Assembly: GCA_937858705.1 (NCBI GenBank)
Contig: CALLZM010000006.1
Coordinates: forward strand, 186,001 to 250,000
Length of the DNA: 64,000 nt
Direction: 5' to 3'
DNA from: an uncultured Candidatus Saccharibacteria bacterium
GTDB lineage: Bacteria > Patescibacteriota > Saccharimonadia > Saccharimonadales > Saccharimonadaceae
Shown here: piece by piece, positions 46,271 through 64,000 of the stretch
Layout of the letters: each line of letters begins with the position of its first letter
Numbering within the stretch: the stretch's first letter is position 1
The notes under the pieces: model-generated
Told to the model about the DNA's origin: nothing
The model's input: only the letters and a program-made list of their open reading frames with translations
Database searches by the model: none
Position numbers and translations under genes: made by a program

Positions 46271-46933
46271 CTACGCGTATAATGCTTTGCGTAACTTCTC
46301 GATATCTGGCACGGTGATGAAGCGATGTTTGATATGAATGAGCCCTTGTTTTTTTAGTTCGCTGATAATTTTGCTGGTGGTTTCGCGGCTAAGATGAGTC
46401 CAGCTGGCGATGATACTTTGATTCACGGGGATCTCGATAAAATAACTGTCATCGGGTTGATGAAAGCTGTAATAGCGAGCCATGGCGAGAAGCCAGCTGA
46501 TGATACGACGGCGGGGTTGTTTTTCTCCGATATAGAGGATGCGCTCGATGAGGAGGTTGTGGTTTTGTAAAATTCGTTCGTGCCATTCGCGGAATATCTC
46601 AGGATTTTGTTGCATCGCAGCGATAAACTCACTTCTTGGCATGCGCCAGACGATACAGTCGGTGTGGGCTTCGTACTCTAGCTCGACATGCGGCATACTG
46701 TAGAACGACCCACTTTGGGTGATGGTCATGCCTGGGATGCCAAAGCCGAGCACGCGTTCGTTGCCGATATCGTCGGTGAACATCATTTTCACATACCCAC
46801 TCTCGATGAAGAAACTCCATGGACTGTCTTCTTCGCGCCGTACGAGCAGCTGCCCCTTTTTGTAGATGACTTTTTGGCCGTGCTTTTGCAGATAAGCAAG
46901 GTGGCTGTGGGCGTAGCTGTGAAAATCTGACAT
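46271..46933 (-). CDS. Crp/Fnr-family transcriptional regulator
   Basis: 220 aa from ATG 46933 (an ATG at 46945 would add four residues but abuts the likely -10). N-terminal cyclic-nucleotide-binding-like beta-roll, lacking the GE-x2-AL/RTA phosphate-binding cassette of CRP and lacking the Cys cluster of Fnr (one Cys only). C-terminal helix-turn-helix with recognition helix HLSRETTSKIISEL: Arg183, Glu184 and Lys188 match the CRP contacts Arg180, Glu181, Arg185 that read TGTGA. A perfect TGTGA-N6-TCACA lies in its own promoter, and two more copies precede the cobalamin/ribonucleotide reductase genes. Signal is unknown. Confidence 0.92.
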   Translation of the reverse strand: MSDFHSYAHSHLAYLQKHGQKVIYKKGQLLVRREEDSPWSFFIESGYVKMMFTDDIGNERVLGFGIPGMTITQSGSFYSMPHVELEYEAHTDCIVWRMPRSEFIAAMQQNPEIFREWHERILQNHNLLIERILYIGEKQPRRRIISWLLAMARYYSFHQPDDSYFIEIPVNQSIIASWTHLSRETTSKIISELKKQGLIHIKHRFITVPDIEKLRKALYA

Positions 46934-46954: not shown

Positions 46955-46970
46955 TGTGATTCAGTTCACA
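46955..46970. promoter_or_regulatory. Crp-type palindrome TGTGATTCAGTTCACA over the regulator's promoter
   Basis: Perfect match to TGTGA-N6-TCACA. On the minus strand a TATGAT -10 lies at 46951-46946, so the site is centred about 23-24 bases upstream of the expected start and would block polymerase: autorepression is likely. It is also about 65 bases upstream of a possible + strand promoter (TAGACA 46992-46997, TATAGT 47016-47021) of the lectin gene. Confidence 0.78.
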
Positions 46971-57402: not shown

Positions 57403-59106
57403 CTATTGTAGCCACGGTTCATCACCGGTGATAATTACGCCGCCATCGAGTTGTCCGCTAATAATTCGTTCAGCAATCGGCATTTCGAAGTGATTGGCAA
57501 CAAGCCGTTTTACAGGCCGTGCACCAAATAGGGGGTTGTAGTCGGCTTGCAATAGGGTTTCGAGAGTTTTGTCCGATATATGAAATGATATATTTTTGGA
57601 ATGCAAACGGTGTTCGAGTTTCGTTATCTCTCGCTGTGCGAGTGCTATTAATTGCGACACGGCAAGAGGTTGATACACCAGTATGGCATCGAAGCGGTTA
57701 ATGAACTCTGGGCGAAAACTTTTTAGTAGCAATGGCATAAGTGTGGTTGAAGCAAACTGAGGCGTAGTGATATCTATGCCTTTTTGTGCGGCGTTGGCGA
57801 TTTCGAGACTACCGATGTTTGAGGTGGCAAGCACCATTGTATGCGTGAAATCGACGGTAGTGCCGCTCGAATCAGTAAGGCGGCCGTCATCGAGCAGCTG
57901 CAAAAATACATCAAATAACTTGGCATGCGCTTTCTCTATTTCATCGAGCAGCACCAGCGAATACGGTTGGCGCATGACAGCGCCTGTGAGCTGCCCGCCT
58001 TCCTCGAAACCAACATAGCCTGGCGGCGAACCAGTCAAACGAATAGCGCTATGTGATTCGGAATATTCGCTCATATCAAGGCGCACCATGGCTTTGGGAT
58101 TATCAAATACGATATTGGTGAGTGCTTTAGCTGTCTCGGTTTTACCAACGCCCGATGGCCCGAGCAGCAAGAACGAACCCCTCGGCCGCGTTTCATCAGT
58201 AAGCCCGAGTTCATTCTTGATGATTGAGCGAGATATCACTTTCAGTGCAGCTGCTTGACCAATCACTTGTTGATTGAGCCGTTTCTCTAGATCGGTTAAG
58301 TGGGAATGATCTTTTTGTGTTAGGCTGGCGAGCGGTACTTTTTCTCGTTCGGCTATAAACGACTTTATATCATTGGCACTCACTTGGTGTTTGCCGTCAA
58401 ATGCGGCCCGAATAGCAATATCTTCGATGAGTCGTATGCCGGTATCTGGCAGTTCACGCCCATGTCCATAGCGCCTGGCTAGCTTCATGAGTGTATCGAT
58501 AGCATCATCGTCTGCCTTGATCCGTTGATCGGCGAATGATTGTCGCAAAATGCGAGCGATAGTGTGGTCCGGTAGAGATTCAACTTCAAGCGAAGTGAAC
58601 AGGCGACTAAACGAATAATCATGTCGAAATAGACGGTCGAAAGCCGTCTTGGTGGTGCTGGCAATTAGCCAAACATTAGGGATATCGGCAATCATTTGGA
58701 GTAGTCCGACTGTTTGCTCTAATCTCGTAGAGTTGTTGGCGGCGAGTAGTTGGATATCTTCGACCACCACAATAGCACCGGGCAATTTGGCAAGGTTGGT
58801 ATGGATAGCTTGGTAGCAACTCTGAACGCTGTCGCCTGCTACCAATAGGTTGAGAACTGGCGTAATATCGAGCTCGTACACTTTGCTGGGTAAATGAGGC
58901 AGTGCGCCCTCGCCGACTGCTTGAGCCAGCATAGCGATCAAACTCGTTTTTCCAAGGCCTGGCTCACCAACAATAATTGCATGATGATGATTTGGCTTAA
59001 GGAGAATTTGCACTAAACGGCGCAACTCTGCTTCACGACCAGCGATGGGCCGTAGCTTTTTAGACCGCGCTGTCAGATTGCGAAACTTCAACGAAACTTC
59101 GGTCAT
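57403..59106 (-). CDS. Short Clp-type AAA+ ATPase (two AAA modules, no N or M domain)
   Basis: 567 aa. First AAA module: Walker A GEPGLGKTS (about residues 47-55), Walker B AIVVVEDIQLL. Second module: GPSGVGKTETA (about 316-326), SPPGYVGFEEGGQL, Walker B LVLLDEIEKAH, sensor ATSNIGS, FRPEFINRFDAILVY, and the C-terminal D2-small domain. ClpA/B/C have 750-870 aa; here the N-terminal domain is missing and the middle domain is absent or minimal. The first module lacks some usual pore and Arg-finger signatures. No ClpP-binding tripeptide was found. It overlaps the acidic disordered protein gene by ATGA, suggesting joint action. Confidence 0.85.
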   Translation of the reverse strand: MTEVSLKFRNLTARSKKLRPIAGREAELRRLVQILLKPNHHHAIIVGEPGLGKTSLIAMLAQAVGEGALPHLPSKVYELDITPVLNLLVAGDSVQSCYQAIHTNLAKLPGAIVVVEDIQLLAANNSTRLEQTVGLLQMIADIPNVWLIASTTKTAFDRLFRHDYSFSRLFTSLEVESLPDHTIARILRQSFADQRIKADDDAIDTLMKLARRYGHGRELPDTGIRLIEDIAIRAAFDGKHQVSANDIKSFIAEREKVPLASLTQKDHSHLTDLEKRLNQQVIGQAAALKVISRSIIKNELGLTDETRPRGSFLLLGPSGVGKTETAKALTNIVFDNPKAMVRLDMSEYSESHSAIRLTGSPPGYVGFEEGGQLTGAVMRQPYSLVLLDEIEKAHAKLFDVFLQLLDDGRLTDSSGTTVDFTHTMVLATSNIGSLEIANAAQKGIDITTPQFASTTLMPLLLKSFRPEFINRFDAILVYQPLAVSQLIALAQREITKLEHRLHSKNISFHISDKTLETLLQADYNPLFGARPVKRLVANHFEMPIAERIISGQLDGGVIITGDEPWLQ

Positions 59107-60878
59107 ACTCTATTCACCTGTAGTTGCTCTTGAGAAGGATTTGATCCCCTGGGAGTTGCGCTGAAAGTAAATACCAAGTCGGTAGGGTCGGCTTGAGTCG
59201 TGTCGTTGACGGAGAAGCTATACGATATTTGCTGCTGAAAAAGATTCGTGTGATGGTCGAATGATTGCGAAGTAGTTTGCTGCTGTCTTTGATTTTGCTT
59301 TGGCGAACTAATAGCTTCTTCTTGAGGAGGGTAGCTATAGCTGTAAGTACTTGTTCCAGGTGGAGCGAAGTTGTTTTCTGATAGAAATTCGAAATGAGTT
59401 TTAGTGGGTTCTTGCATTTCTTTGGGTGTGGCTGTGATTGGCTTTTTGGCGATAACTTCCGCTGGTTGATGATAGAATCTCTCTTCGATCTTGGGTGTTG
59501 CATGTTGTTTCTCGGCGATCGGCTGTTTGTTTTGTGCAGTCTGTGCGACGGCTATCTCTTTTTGGGCTTTTACAATGTTTACAGCAGGAGCTGGCGCAAC
59601 TTTTTCTTCAACTGCCGGTTTTTGTCGTAATTGGACGAATACAGCTTTTTCCTCAACTTCCTCAATTTTCGCCGGTATTAGTACGGACGGTGATGCTTCA
59701 GCCGTTGTTTTTTTGACAACTATTTCTCTTTTTGGCTCCTCTCGATTTGATATAGCTTCTCTTTTTGGTTGCTCGGCAATCGTTTCTGGATCAATTGTTA
59801 CGCTCTCGGTAATTTTCTCTTCGGTTTTCTGATGGATCGCACCTTCTGTATCAGTATCGGCGGATGAAATGGTTGGCGCGATTTCTTCTACTGTTGTTTC
59901 CGAGCTTATTGCTGGAGCTTCTTTCGTAGTTGTTTCTAGCGCTGGAGTATCAACTATTGCCTCATTTTCTATCACTAGTGAATCGTTGATATCTTCTATC
60001 TCTGCTTCCGCCATAGATTCTTCGCTCTTTGCTGCCACTGGAGTTTCTTCTGTTGTAATTTCCTCGACAACAGAGTCAGTTCTTTCAGATAGACTTTCTG
60101 TGCCTATGTCATAGACAGGCAATTCATCGACCGTATCAACTTTTTCCATAATTTCTTCTGAATCGTCAGTCAATGCACTCGTCTCCACAGCACCAGTATC
60201 GGCATCACTTTCAAATATCACGCCATATTCTGCCTCACCCGTCTCTAGCTTTTCCGTTTCTGCTGTTTCTGTTACGGCCACATATAAATCTCCACCACCG
60301 TCACCGTCATCTGGTTGCGTTTCATTATCTGGCTCGTGATTCTTCACGGTTTCTGCCAACTCGGCAGTATCAGTGATTCCACTATCGCCGTCTTCAACTT
60401 CGGGTTCTTCTAGCAACTCAATCAGTCGCAATTCCATGGTGGCGACAATAGTCATGAGCTGGTTGCCATGAGCATCGTAACCCTTGGGCACATAGGTCTG
60501 AACCGACCAAGCTTCATGCTCGTCATCGCCAAAACCGAAACTAGGGTCGAGTTTTGTTTCAACCGTCGCAGGTTCTAGAAGTGCTATGACTTCATTAAAT
60601 ATTGCAGCCTGATCGGTATCCAAAATGAGAGGCATATGGAGCAGTGGTTCGCCATTTTCATCTTGAGCATATATGCCGCTTTCGAGAACAATATAAGGAA
60701 ATTCAGTAGAAACTTTACTCTCGGTTTCCGCATTGCTGGGGTCGAGTTCTGAGCTATGCTCGAAAGGAGGCATTGCAGCGTGCACTTCTTCGTCTGTTTC
60801 GAAAGGATTTTCAGGCGCGCGCGCGATTTCGACTTCAGGAGTAAACGGACGCAATTCGGCTGTTGCTGGCGATGTCAT
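59103..60878 (-). CDS. Large acidic, mostly disordered protein paired with Clp-like ATPase
   Basis: 591 aa. A short ordered-looking N-terminal region (about 40-165: TEFPYIVLESGIYAQDENGEPLLHMPLI, and a MTIVATMELRLIELLEEPE helix, in outline), then about 350 residues dominated by Glu, Thr, Val, Ser and Ala with little order, and a Gln/Ser/Pro-rich tail ending FTFSATPRGS. No TM helix. Start ATG 60878 has AAGGGGGAAA upstream; a longer frame to 61028 is less likely. The stop overlaps the Clp-like gene (ATGA). It may be an adaptor or substrate of that ATPase; no family recognised. Confidence 0.68.
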   Translation of the reverse strand: MTSPATAELRPFTPEVEIARAPENPFETDEEVHAAMPPFEHSSELDPSNAETESKVSTEFPYIVLESGIYAQDENGEPLLHMPLILDTDQAAIFNEVIALLEPATVETKLDPSFGFGDDEHEAWSVQTYVPKGYDAHGNQLMTIVATMELRLIELLEEPEVEDGDSGITDTAELAETVKNHEPDNETQPDDGDGGGDLYVAVTETAETEKLETGEAEYGVIFESDADTGAVETSALTDDSEEIMEKVDTVDELPVYDIGTESLSERTDSVVEEITTEETPVAAKSEESMAEAEIEDINDSLVIENEAIVDTPALETTTKEAPAISSETTVEEIAPTISSADTDTEGAIHQKTEEKITESVTIDPETIAEQPKREAISNREEPKREIVVKKTTAEASPSVLIPAKIEEVEEKAVFVQLRQKPAVEEKVAPAPAVNIVKAQKEIAVAQTAQNKQPIAEKQHATPKIEERFYHQPAEVIAKKPITATPKEMQEPTKTHFEFLSENNFAPPGTSTYSYSYPPQEEAISSPKQNQRQQQTTSQSFDHHTNLFQQQISYSFSVNDTTQADPTDLVFTFSATPRGSNPSQEQLQVNRV

Positions 60879-61099
60879 TGTTCCGTTTCCCCCTTCCGCT
60901 ATAGTACGAGCGGGTGGGGAAGTCTTGTTGGATAAGACTGCCTGCTCTTTTCCGCGAAGACCATAGCATATTGCTCGGATAGGGCGGTTTTCTGGCTTTA
61001 CAGTTGCGCGACAGTGGAGGAATTGCACCTCACTTACCCGTGACCCCTATTCGAAATGTATTGTGTATAGTTACTGTACGCCAAAACCGAGCAAAACAC

Positions 61100-61115
61100 T
61101 GTGATATATGTCACT
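61100..61115. promoter_or_regulatory. Crp-type palindrome upstream of the adenosyltransferase gene
   Basis: TGTGATATATGTCACT matches TGTGA-N6-TCACA at 9 of 10 fixed positions. It lies 4 bases upstream of the first NrdR-like box, in the divergent gap between the acidic-protein gene and the adenosyltransferase gene. Confidence 0.75.
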
Positions 61116-61118
61116 TAT

Positions 61119-61167
61119 TCACTAAATATAGGGGTATATGTCGTAATTTTGACACTATATTTAGTGG
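61119..61167. promoter_or_regulatory. Pair of NrdR boxes before the cobalamin adenosyltransferase
   Basis: Two 16-mers, tcaCTAAATATAGggg (61119-61134) and acaCTATATTTAGtgg (61152-61167), match the NrdR consensus acaCwAtATaTwGtgt closely. They start 33 bases apart, about three helical turns, which is the usual arrangement for NrdR. The second overlaps a TTGACA (61149-61154). NrdR represses ribonucleotide reductase genes when dATP is high. Confidence 0.75.
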
Positions 61168-61204
61168 TTTTATTGACAATGAAAAGAATAAGCAGGTACC
61201 ATAG

Positions 61205-61774
61205 ATGAATATGGAAGGATACGAGACGAAACCGTCAGTTGTGCTGGTATATACTGGGGATGGCAAAGGTAAGACCAGCGCAAGCCTTGGGTTGATGGCG
61301 CGAGCGCTAGGCGGTGGCTGGAAGGTCGCATATCTCCAATTCATCAAGCATTGGCGGGTGGGCGAGCATGAATTTATCGAAAAAATCCAGCCTTTGTATA
61401 GCGATCAGCTCTATTTTTACAGGGGTGGAAAAGGGTTTTACAATGCCGGCACAATGAGTGCCAAGCATGTATCGGAGCATGAACATAAAGTCGCGGCCGA
61501 AGATACCTATGCGATAGCGCAAACTCTCGCAAGCAGCGGGGAATACCAACTGGTGATTTGCGACGAAATAAACAACGCTGTGCACGATGGTCTTCTCACG
61601 AAGAAGCAGCTGTCATCACTCATCACTACAAAACATGCTACGACGAGCCTGTGTTTAACAGGTCGCAATTTTCCAAGTAGCCTCCTTTCAAAAGTCGATA
61701 TCGCCACAGATATGCATAAAATAAAACATCATTACGACGATAAATTTCTCGCCAACCCCGGCATCGATTACTAG
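61205..61774 (+). CDS. Cob(I)yrinic acid a,c-diamide/cobalamin adenosyltransferase (BtuR/CobA family)
   Basis: 189 aa. Makes adenosylcobalamin by transferring the adenosyl group of ATP to cob(I)alamin or a corrinoid. Seen: P-loop TGDGKGKTSAS (about residues 17-27), VAYLQFIKH, the LVICDEINNAVHDGLL strand-loop typical of CobA, and TGRNFP...IKHHYDDKFLANPGIDY-type C-terminus (outlined). Family proteins are about 170-200 aa, so it is complete. ATG 61205 or ATG 61211 is possible; TACCAT lies 8 bases before the latter (leaderless pattern). It provides the cofactor for the adjacent class II ribonucleotide reductase. Regulatory boxes upstream tie it to deoxynucleotide control rather than to corrinoid synthesis. 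Confidence 0.93.
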   Translation: MNMEGYETKPSVVLVYTGDGKGKTSASLGLMARALGGGWKVAYLQFIKHWRVGEHEFIEKIQPLYSDQLYFYRGGKGFYNAGTMSAKHVSEHEHKVAAEDTYAIAQTLASSGEYQLVICDEINNAVHDGLLTKKQLSSLITTKHATTSLCLTGRNFPSSLLSKVDIATDMHKIKHHYDDKFLANPGIDY

Positions 61775-61780
61775 AGAGCC

Positions 61781-61853
61781 ACACTACATATAGCGGGTCC
61801 TAAAATGGAGGCAGTATTTACGCTATATATGGTGTACACGCTATATATAGCGT
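61781..61853. promoter_or_regulatory. Three NrdR boxes upstream of the class II ribonucleotide reductase
   Basis: acaCTACATATAGcgg (61781-61796), acgCTATATATGGtgt (61820-61835) and acgCTATATATAGcgt (61838-61853, a perfect palindrome). Core identity to CwAtATaTwG is clear in all three. They lie upstream of a TATACT -10 (61916-61921) and of the Crp-type site. Confidence 0.8.
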
Positions 61854-61878
61854 TGTAATATTAACTATTACACCTAAA

Positions 61879-61894
61879 TGTGATGTATGTCACA
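61879..61894. promoter_or_regulatory. Perfect Crp-type palindrome at -41.5 of the nrdJ promoter
   Basis: TGTGATGTATGTCACA matches TGTGA-N6-TCACA exactly. A TATACT -10 at 61916-61921 predicts a start near 61928, placing the site centre (61886.5) at about -41.5, the classic position for class II activation by CRP. No good -35 is present, as expected for an activated promoter. Confidence 0.8.
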
Positions 61895-61970
61895 GATTTA
61901 TTGTTTTTGCTTACCTATACTAAGTATATTGCTTCTAGAAAGCACACAAACATTTTAAGAGGGGGTTATA

Positions 61971-64000
61971 ATGGCAGAAACAGCCGCTAAAGAGCGGACA
62001 GCTAAGTCATCGACAGACGACAGAACAGTCCAAATCTATAACAAATATATACCATTCACCAAGAAGCGAGACGACCGTAAGGTGCCGTTTGAGTTTAATA
62101 AAATTGTCCGTGCTATTTCTAAAGCCATGAAAGAAACTAGCGAAGGCAGTGAGGCCGAAGCAGCTATCGTGGCGCACCGCGTGGCGAGTGAGCTGATGTT
62201 GACCGCAAAGAAATATAAGACATTTGTACCAACCGTCGAAGCAGTCCAAGACGAAGTAGAGCGCCAGCTGATGCTCGCAGAATACACCGCTACCGCCAAA
62301 GCCTACATCATTTACCGCGAAGAGCATGCCAAAAAGCGCGAGCAAGAAGCGCTGGTGTCACCAGAAGTGAAAGAGGCAATTGCTTCGAGTAGCAAGTATT
62401 TCAAGTCTTCGTATCAAGAGTTCATTTTCTACCAGTTTTATGCAAGGTGGCGTGATGATCTTGGCCGCCGTGAAACTTGGGAAGAGGCCATCGATCGTTT
62501 TATGGAATACATGAAATTCAAGCTTGGCGATAAGCTAAAAGCCAGCGAATACAAAGAGGTTCGCGAAGGTATATTGAAGCAAGAAGTTTGTCCTTCGATG
62601 CGACTACTGTGGTCAGCTGGCGAAGCGTGCGATGCAACCAATGTTACTGCCTACAACTGTGCCTACATTGCGCCAAAAACCTGGCAAGATCTCTCGGAAA
62701 TTATGTATGTTTCGATGTGTGGCGCAGGATGCGGTTTCTCAGTTGAGTCAGAAAATGTCGAGCTCTTTCCGCAAATTCAAAAGCAATCTGGCAATAAGGT
62801 AGATCCTATCGTTGTCGAAGATAGCAAAGAAGGCTGGTGCCGCGCGTATGTTGAGGCATGCCAAGTCTGGGCAAGCGGTGACGATGTAGATATCGACTAT
62901 TCTCAGCTGCGACCAGCTGGTGCACGACTGTTTACTATGGGTGGTCGTTCATCTGGTCCAGCACCACTTCGTGAACTGATGGACTTTACTCGCAAGAAAA
63001 TGCTGGCTCGCCAAGGTCGTCGCCTGTCGACACTCGATCTCCACGATATTATCTGCCAAATTGGACTGATTGTGGTAGCAGGTGGTGTTCGTCGCTCGGC
63101 TCTCATTTCTCTCTCTGCTCTCGATGATGTCGCCTTGCGTGACTCAAAAAAGGGTGCCTTTTGGCAAACTGAAGGTCAACGAAGTATGGCAAATAACTCA
63201 GCAGTCTATGAGGTAAAGCCAAGTGCTGGTGAGTTCTTGCAAGAGTGGACGGCCCTGGTGACATCTGGCTCTGGTGAACGAGGTATTTACAACCGCGGCG
63301 GTCTTGAACAGCAAGTGCCAGCTCGTCGTTGGGAGCAAATTAAAGATCAATCACAGGTGGGCGTCAACCCATGTGGCGAGATCTACCTCCGCAGCAAGCA
63401 ATTTTGCAACCTTACTTCTATCGTAGTGCGACCAGAAGATAGCATGGATGACCTCAAGCGCAAAATGCGTCTGGCGACTATCCTTGGTACCTATCAAGCT
63501 ACCTTGACGCACTTTGGCTACCTTGACAAAGCATGGCAAGATAACTGTGAGGCTGAGCAGCTTCTTGGTGTCTCGATCACTGGGTATTACGACAACGACC
63601 TTGTACGCACCGACTCTACTCTGAAGGCGCTTCGCAAAGAGGCGATCGATGTCAACAAAGAATACGCCAAGCGATTCGATGCTAACCCATCGACTGCCAT
63701 CACTTGTGTGAAGCCGCACGGCAACTCTGGCCAGCTTCTCGGCGTTGGCTCAGGCATGCATCCATGGTTTGCCAAGCACTATATTCGTCGCGTCCGTATC
63801 AGCGTTAACGACCCATTGCTCAAGCTGGCTCGCGACCAAGGTGTGCCTATCTTCCCAGAAGTTGGCTATTCGACTGCCACCGCCACCACTATGGTGATGG
63901 AATTCCCAGTCAAAGCTCCAGAGGGCGCAGTCGTCTCGAAAGATGTTTCAGCGCTCGAAATGCTCAAAGAATGGAAGCGACTCAAAGAAAACTTTACCGA
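61971..64000 (+). CDS. nrdJ: Adenosylcobalamin-dependent ribonucleoside-triphosphate reductase, class II (3' end outside window)
   Basis: First 676 codons. Reduces NTPs (or NDPs) to deoxy forms with a radical generated from adenosylcobalamin. Residues about 30-120 are an ATP-cone (KVPFEFNKIVRAISKAM, then PTVEAVQDEVE and AKAYIIYRE), an allosteric dATP/ATP site. The catalytic barrel follows: Asn466, Cys468 and Glu470 in NPCGEI, and Cys479 eleven residues later, the same spacing as Asn406/Cys408/Glu410 and Cys419 of Lactobacillus leichmannii RTPR; the partner half-cystine is in TAYNCAYIAP. The start has GAGGGGG about 7-8 bases upstream. Upstream NrdR and Crp-type sites indicate dual control. The C-terminal shuttle Cys pair would lie beyond the window. 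Confidence 0.95.
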   Translation, partial: MAETAAKERTAKSSTDDRTVQIYNKYIPFTKKRDDRKVPFEFNKIVRAISKAMKETSEGSEAEAAIVAHRVASELMLTAKKYKTFVPTVEAVQDEVERQLMLAEYTATAKAYIIYREEHAKKREQEALVSPEVKEAIASSSKYFKSSYQEFIFYQFYARWRDDLGRRETWEEAIDRFMEYMKFKLGDKLKASEYKEVREGILKQEVCPSMRLLWSAGEACDATNVTAYNCAYIAPKTWQDLSEIMYVSMCGAGCGFSVESENVELFPQIQKQSGNKVDPIVVEDSKEGWCRAYVEACQVWASGDDVDIDYSQLRPAGARLFTMGGRSSGPAPLRELMDFTRKKMLARQGRRLSTLDLHDIICQIGLIVVAGGVRRSALISLSALDDVALRDSKKGAFWQTEGQRSMANNSAVYEVKPSAGEFLQEWTALVTSGSGERGIYNRGGLEQQVPARRWEQIKDQSQVGVNPCGEIYLRSKQFCNLTSIVVRPEDSMDDLKRKMRLATILGTYQATLTHFGYLDKAWQDNCEAEQLLGVSITGYYDNDLVRTDSTLKALRKEAIDVNKEYAKRFDANPSTAITCVKPHGNSGQLLGVGSGMHPWFAKHYIRRVRISVNDPLLKLARDQGVPIFPEVGYSTATATTMVMEFPVKAPEGAVVSKDVSALEMLKEWKRLKENFT

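Follow-up and report, generated by a model that had tools for sequence, protein, structure and literature searches.

A candidate NrdR and Crp/Fnr regulon joining a corrinoid adenosyltransferase to a B12-dependent ribonucleotide reductase in a Saccharibacteria genome

The window, that is, the whole 64 kb stretch of DNA analysed here, belongs to a genome of 910 kb in 31 contigs that is 96 percent complete. A corrinoid adenosyltransferase gene (ATR) and a ribonucleotide reductase gene (nrdJ) lie on the plus strand, each with a separate upstream region, and a riboswitch-led operon diverges from ATR. The features of the region are the following:

57403-59106, minus strand: second gene of the divergent operon, ClpA/ClpB-like AAA+ ATPase (AAA_2)
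59103-60878, minus strand: first gene of the riboswitch-led operon, acidic protein of 591 aa (open reading frame)
60979-61050, minus strand: AdoCbl-II (B12) riboswitch aptamer (RF01689, 42.9 bits, gathering cut-off 36.5, E 9.3e-7)
61100-61115, plus strand: CRP-type palindrome TGTGATATATGTCACT, 1 mismatch, upstream of ATR
61119-61134, plus strand: weak NrdR box TCACTAAATATAGGGG, 4 mismatches, 10.0 bits, rank 5 of the window, upstream of ATR
61152-61167, plus strand: NrdR box ACACTATATTTAGTGG, 2 mismatches, 13.9 bits, upstream of ATR
61205-61774, plus strand: ATR, corrinoid adenosyltransferase of BtuR/CobA type, 189 aa (PF02572)
61781-61796, plus strand: NrdR box ACACTACATATAGCGG, 2 mismatches, 19.1 bits, upstream of nrdJ
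61820-61835, plus strand: NrdR box ACGCTATATATGGTGT, 1 mismatch, 23.0 bits, upstream of nrdJ
61838-61853, plus strand: perfect NrdR box ACGCTATATATAGCGT, 0 mismatches, 26.7 bits, upstream of nrdJ
61879-61894, plus strand: CRP-type palindrome TGTGATGTATGTCACA, 0 mismatches, upstream of nrdJ
61916-61921, plus strand: putative -10 element TATACT, 21 bp downstream of the nrdJ palindrome
61971-64283 (61971-64000 within the window), plus strand: nrdJ, 770 aa, ATP-cone at the N-terminus, 3′ end outside the window

The first-pass annotation had described five NrdR-like 16-mers, two before ATR and three before nrdJ, together with two Crp-type palindromes upstream of the same genes, and all of them were recovered at the positions given above. 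The ATR protein matched PF02572 with 159.3 bits (cut-off 25.7, E 1.4e-46) as well as the solved enzymes 4hut and 1g5r. Its score against the cobA equivalog TIGR00708 (125.4 bits) fell below the cut-off of 167.75; the protein is a divergent relative, and we do not assign it to the cobA equivalog as such. The window part of the nrdJ product, used as query, reached 227.5 bits against TIGR02505 (E 2.7e-67, cut-off 340). This protein resembles the Lactobacillus-type RTPR (structure 1l1l), with the active-site motif NPCGEI aligned, its full-length form carries CVGGAC at the C-terminus, and its nearest named record is from Candidatus Saccharibacteria (76 percent). Neither a class I small subunit nor an NrdA-like match, a second B12 reductase or another ATP-cone RNR was detected in the genome. 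Because no other RNR gene was found in a genome 96 percent complete, nrdJ is probably the sole RNR of the organism.

The ATR and nrdJ boxes are 16-bp palindromes near ACRCTATATATAGYGT, as is characteristic of NrdR promoters. When up to 3 mismatches were allowed, the pattern matched 5 times in the window, 4 of them in the ATR/nrdJ region, against an expectation of 1.05, and none of 100 shuffles reached 5 matches. A matrix built from 37 promoter sites of nrdR, nrdA and nrdD in other genomes, with no window sites, placed the five 16-mers at ranks 1-5 of the 64 kb, rank 6 scoring 8.8 bits. Because these training sites had originally been chosen by a pattern modelled on the window boxes, the fair tests are the controls in relatives.

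In the 800 bp upstream of ATR, a site of at least 10 bits was present in 16 of the 47 loci of relatives, compared with 0/47 downstream, and 40 dinucleotide shuffles yielded a mean of 0.6 and a maximum of 2 loci with a site. The other 31 loci had no box above 10 bits in this stretch, and at one of the 16 boxed loci (L059) the site lies within an opposite-strand open reading frame. Most of the boxes upstream of ATR precede a co-directional pair or trio of genes in other families, for example glutaredoxin (grx), a gene X and ATR; the two X proteins tested had no Pfam match. Within 400 bp upstream of ATR, no box with 2 mismatches or fewer was found in relatives outside the window's genome. That these empty stretches refute conservation was considered and rejected, since the operon promoters sit 450-750 bp upstream. 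Neighbouring box pairs in the examined loci were separated by 32 bp in 12/53 cases and by 33 bp in 21/53, the latter being the commonest spacing and also that of the ATR pair. These values are close to those published for Mycobacterium tuberculosis, where the nrdH boxes are spaced 32 bp apart according to the available part of PMC4428469, and for Escherichia coli, where the accessible text of PMC12176259 gives linkers of 15-16 bp. Boxes with up to 3 mismatches also occurred before nrdR(-nrdJ) in 23 of the 29 order-level loci with nrdR placed by script (L173 dropped), and further boxes lie upstream of nrdA and nrdD in relatives.

A lack of box conservation in close relatives had been named by the first-pass annotation as a refuting result, and the loci examined do not refute its reading. 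Beyond the genus, a box is kept at nrdJ in the only two further genomes, among 100 searched, with strong similarity to this gene (G031 and G039, 77 percent): the G039 promoter has a box with 2 mismatches and a perfect palindrome, and that of G031 a weaker box (3 mismatches) and a palindrome with 1 mismatch. Boxes also precede ATR operons of other families. The two same-genus genomes contain neither ATR nor nrdJ of the window type and therefore cannot test box conservation. The arrangement of the two genes varies, with nrdJ and ATR forming one operon in G031 and L285, ATR directly 3′ of nrdJ in L270, L271 and L276, and nrdJ present with ATR not detected in G039. Across the order, a class II RNR was found in 47 of the 48 genomes with ATR (p 1e-22), and ATR was absent in 4 of the 51 class II genomes. 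The usual B12 reductase of the order is of a different type (PRK06556 family) and adjoins nrdR. Because other families have the link between NrdR and ATR with this different type of reductase, the link, as judged from these loci, is older than the window-type nrdJ. Acquisition of ATR together with the window-type nrdJ was rejected, ATR being widespread alongside the other B12 reductase.

NrdR-like boxes were also observed elsewhere. In three relatives (L148, L150 and L151) they lie between proS-like and greA-like genes, named by eye. A further group consists of 36-bp double palindromes, in which two NrdR-like 16-mers are separated by a 4-bp gap and which may be a repeat element instead of NrdR sites. 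They often lie just 3′ of stop codons (glyS, metK) or around metK, and two are inside open reading frames that by eye are murD-like (L019) and rnhB-like (L159). Their positions are:

L007:1501-1536, 36-bp double palindrome
L009:1501-1536, 36-bp double palindrome
L011:1481-1516, 36-bp double palindrome
L012:1501-1536 and 2712-2747, 36-bp double palindromes
L019:1636-1671, 36-bp double palindrome
L159:1481-1516, 36-bp double palindrome

The absence of nrdR from the genome had been set beforehand as the observation that would speak against a shared repressor. The gene was found directly after ftsZ (G000:C25), its product scoring 131.5 bits against TIGR00244 (cut-off 124.65) and matching the ATP-cone PF03477 (E 1.9e-19):

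L001:1363-1815, window's genome: NrdR without the four zinc-ribbon cysteines

The definition of NrdR includes two zinc-holding CXXC motifs, according to the accessible portion of PMC12176259, and the zinc-ribbon domain of the protein in the window's genome contains no cysteine. A script identified such zinc-less NrdR in 39 genomes, the window's own and 38 relatives, all of the same family; 31 rows had four or more cysteines and 23 were ambiguous, the script having lost the frame or the motif, although by eye most of these have CXXC. In none of the 39 genomes does a box with up to 3 mismatches precede their own nrdR, and the usual B12 reductase of the order is absent from all of them. The zinc-less protein keeps the arginine-rich RRRRE and the remaining domain (Zn_ribbon_NrdR, E 2.5e-10). 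Sites with at most 1 mismatch numbered 75 in the 39 genomes, compared with 4 control sites (summed by hand). Because strong boxes persist at nrdA/nrdD in zinc-less genomes (L145, L155, L156 and L157), we think that the domain folds and binds DNA without zinc. The window's genome also encodes a 93-aa protein with little beyond an ATP-cone (L003, G000:C7:4967-5167, minus strand), beside a gene for an FAD-type oxidoreductase.

CRP-like sites are not in excess, with 27 in the window against 30 expected and 20 genome-wide against 32 for a reversed-pattern control. These counts are not above chance; the case for the two palindromes relies on position and conservation. A Crp/Fnr-family gene lies 3′ of nrdJ in the window's genome, or of nrdJ-ATR in G031, and is oriented towards it. 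Among 83 nrdJ loci, 7 of the 8 with a crp-like neighbour have a palindrome in the 350 bp upstream of nrdJ, against 4 of the 75 without one (p 6e-7); at the eighth locus (L279), TGTGACGGCTGTCACA is present once the start codon is correctly set, which brings the count to 8/8. The recognition helix of all eight neighbouring proteins contains RETV(N/S/G)R, and a RETVxR helix reads TGTGA by CRP rules, not the FNR half-site. The protein in the window's genome matches NtcA, CRP and FNR chains, and that of G031 has cNMP-binding and Crp-like HTH domains (Pfam). A -10 element with 5-6 of 6 matches follows the palindrome by 21-22 bp in 6 of 9 nrdJ promoters, namely those of the window's genome (G000), G039, G031, L210, L242 and, by eye, L279; in L244 and L285 only 4 of 6 positions match, and L212 has none. 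We take the distance at nrdJ to be the geometry of a class II activator, at about -41.5. Downstream of the ATR palindrome the -10 element is poor (TATATG at 19 bp). The activator that had been proposed alongside the repressor thus has a candidate gene, and it is probably the Crp/Fnr-family protein encoded beside nrdJ. Two more Crp-like genes are present in the window's genome. A perfect TGTGATTCAGTTCACA occurs at 46955-46970, just 5′ of a gene of the Crp/Fnr family on the minus strand (about 46310-46864), a possible case of autoregulation.

The AdoCbl-II riboswitch, missed by the first-pass annotation, belongs to the leader of the divergent operon, back to back with the promoter of ATR. The 591-aa acidic protein had no Pfam family above cut-off, and the Clp-like ATPase matched ClpB (E 4.9e-128) and ClpA (E 4e-123) in NCBIfam, both under the cut-offs. 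A homologous acidic-protein operon with the same gene order follows an AdoCbl-II riboswitch in G039. This riboswitch was found in 25 of 100 genomes (14 above the family cut-off), every one of which also has a class II RNR (p 1e-9). In G030 and G036, such elements stand ahead of nrdD or nrdA. Among relatives, 18/25 of these riboswitches have a NrdR box (at least 10 bits) no more than 150 bp upstream, compared with 0/25 in each of two control stretches (a set of 25 from which the window's own riboswitch was dropped and to which G036 contributes two). In many families of the order, proteins of about 450 aa are encoded behind a NrdR box and an AdoCbl-II riboswitch (L327-L348). Judged by this position they are candidate corrinoid-related genes; 18 of the 26 compared form one large cluster, and three that were scanned had no Pfam match above cut-off save a marginal CBFNT (22.9 vs 22 bits). 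A FecCD/BtuC importer homologue, such as might serve the scavenging of corrinoids from a host that the first-pass annotation thought likely, was found in 5/100 genomes at E <= 0.001 and not in the window's genome.

The presence of boxes at both promoters, of nrdR in the genome and of boxes at the ATR operons of relatives supports the earlier proposal that ATR and nrdJ would answer to one NrdR repressor. On sequence grounds, we consider it likely that the region forms a regulon of two promoters serving adenosyl-B12-dependent deoxynucleotide synthesis, repressed by NrdR and activated by a Crp/Fnr-family protein. The binding, direction of effect and nucleotide and cofactor responses suggested by these genes, sites, statistics and conservation would be as follows. 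When DNA precursors are sufficient, NrdR loaded with ATP/dATP would bind the boxes and switch off nrdJ together with the cofactor-making ATR. The Crp/Fnr-family protein encoded next to nrdJ would bind the TGTGA-N6-TCACA palindromes and activate, at nrdJ from about 41 bp upstream of the transcription start, and the divergent AdoCbl-II-led operon would respond to the level of finished cofactor. The nrdJ boxes, spaced 39 and 18 bp apart and all upstream of the activator site, lack the 32-33 bp spacing, so that the mode of repression is less clear there than at ATR. Further points that weigh against the regulon are the 31 ATR loci without a box, the site of L059, the absence of both genes from the same-genus genomes, the weak nrdJ box of G031, the undetected ATR of G039, the loss of the zinc ligands said to support the DNA-binding domain of NrdR, the lack of a genome-wide excess of CRP-like sites and the poor -10 element at ATR.

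Other readings of these sites have to be weighed. NrdR might control both genes while the CRP-type palindromes are fortuitous or are bound by some unrelated paralogue of Crp; the lack of a genome-wide excess and the two further Crp-like genes fit this, but the tie between palindrome and adjacent crp-like gene over the 83 nrdJ loci and the constant distance to the -10 element make it rather unlikely. Recognition of the boxes by some other protein, the zinc-less NrdR having lost DNA binding, is likewise improbable. The four cysteines are indeed gone in all 39 genomes, none of which has a box before its own nrdR, yet RRRRE, the rest of the domain and the ATP-cone are kept, and the zinc-less genomes retain strong nrdA/nrdD boxes and the surplus of 75 sites over 4.

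Finally, the sites could be AT-rich palindromes with no regulatory meaning, as the similar double palindromes near unrelated genes in the window's genome might suggest. Against this stand the ranks 1-5 in 64 kb, the enrichment before ATR and before AdoCbl-II riboswitches (18/25 vs 0/25 twice) and the 32-33 bp spacing of the pairs, and we regard it as very improbable. Beyond the two-promoter regulon, we tentatively propose, at somewhat short of even odds, that across this order, whose members are host-dependent, a dATP-sensing repressor runs a complete corrinoid-linked DNA-precursor regulon, comprising the class II reductase, the adenosyltransferase, the glutaredoxin-led operon and the AdoCbl-II-led genes, and that one large clade does so through a zinc-free NrdR. 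The AdoCbl-II-led genes may serve corrinoid acquisition.

Regulation in such reduced genomes has hardly been described. If the proposal is true, supply and use of a cofactor are wired to a single DNA-precursor signal, and nature provides a zinc-free version of a well-studied repressor. The combination of NrdR box and AdoCbl-II riboswitch would also offer a route to unrecognised corrinoid-import genes, useful because BtuC-like proteins are missing. In the open literature searched, we found no paper joining NrdR with a BtuR/corrinoid adenosyltransferase or with Patescibacteria/Saccharibacteria, and none on a Saccharibacteria/Patescibacteria RNR with cobalamin or on a Saccharibacteria cobalamin riboswitch; the available part of PMC4428469 mentions NrdR, adenosyltransferase and nrdJ and draws no link among them.

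The closest known systems share parts of this arrangement. As in the NrdR regulon of E. coli, Streptomyces and Pseudomonas aeruginosa, 16-bp palindromic boxes precede RNR genes and nrdR is in the genome; in P. aeruginosa, nrdJ is itself under NrdR control, as stated in the accessible part of PMC4409342. In contrast to that regulon, the window adds a cofactor-making enzyme, a repressor without zinc ligands and an unusual spacing of the nrdJ boxes. In Propionibacterium acnes, an actinobacterial nrdRJ occurs alongside nrdAB and nrdDG that carry cobalamin riboswitches, as far as the available text of PMC3848588 goes. On that account, P. acnes resembles the present case in uniting NrdR and a B12 riboswitch in one RNR network, and its adjacency of nrdR and nrdJ is shared with other families of the window's order. 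The riboswitch of P. acnes, as there described, leads B12-independent RNRs, whereas that of the window leads the acidic protein and the Clp-like ATPase divergent from ATR. The Pseudomonas nrdJ is controlled by Anr/Dnr, so that a Crp/Fnr-family activator and NrdR likewise meet at a class II RNR; in the window, by contrast, the putative activator gene adjoins nrdJ, and the RETVxR helix of its product suits TGTGA.
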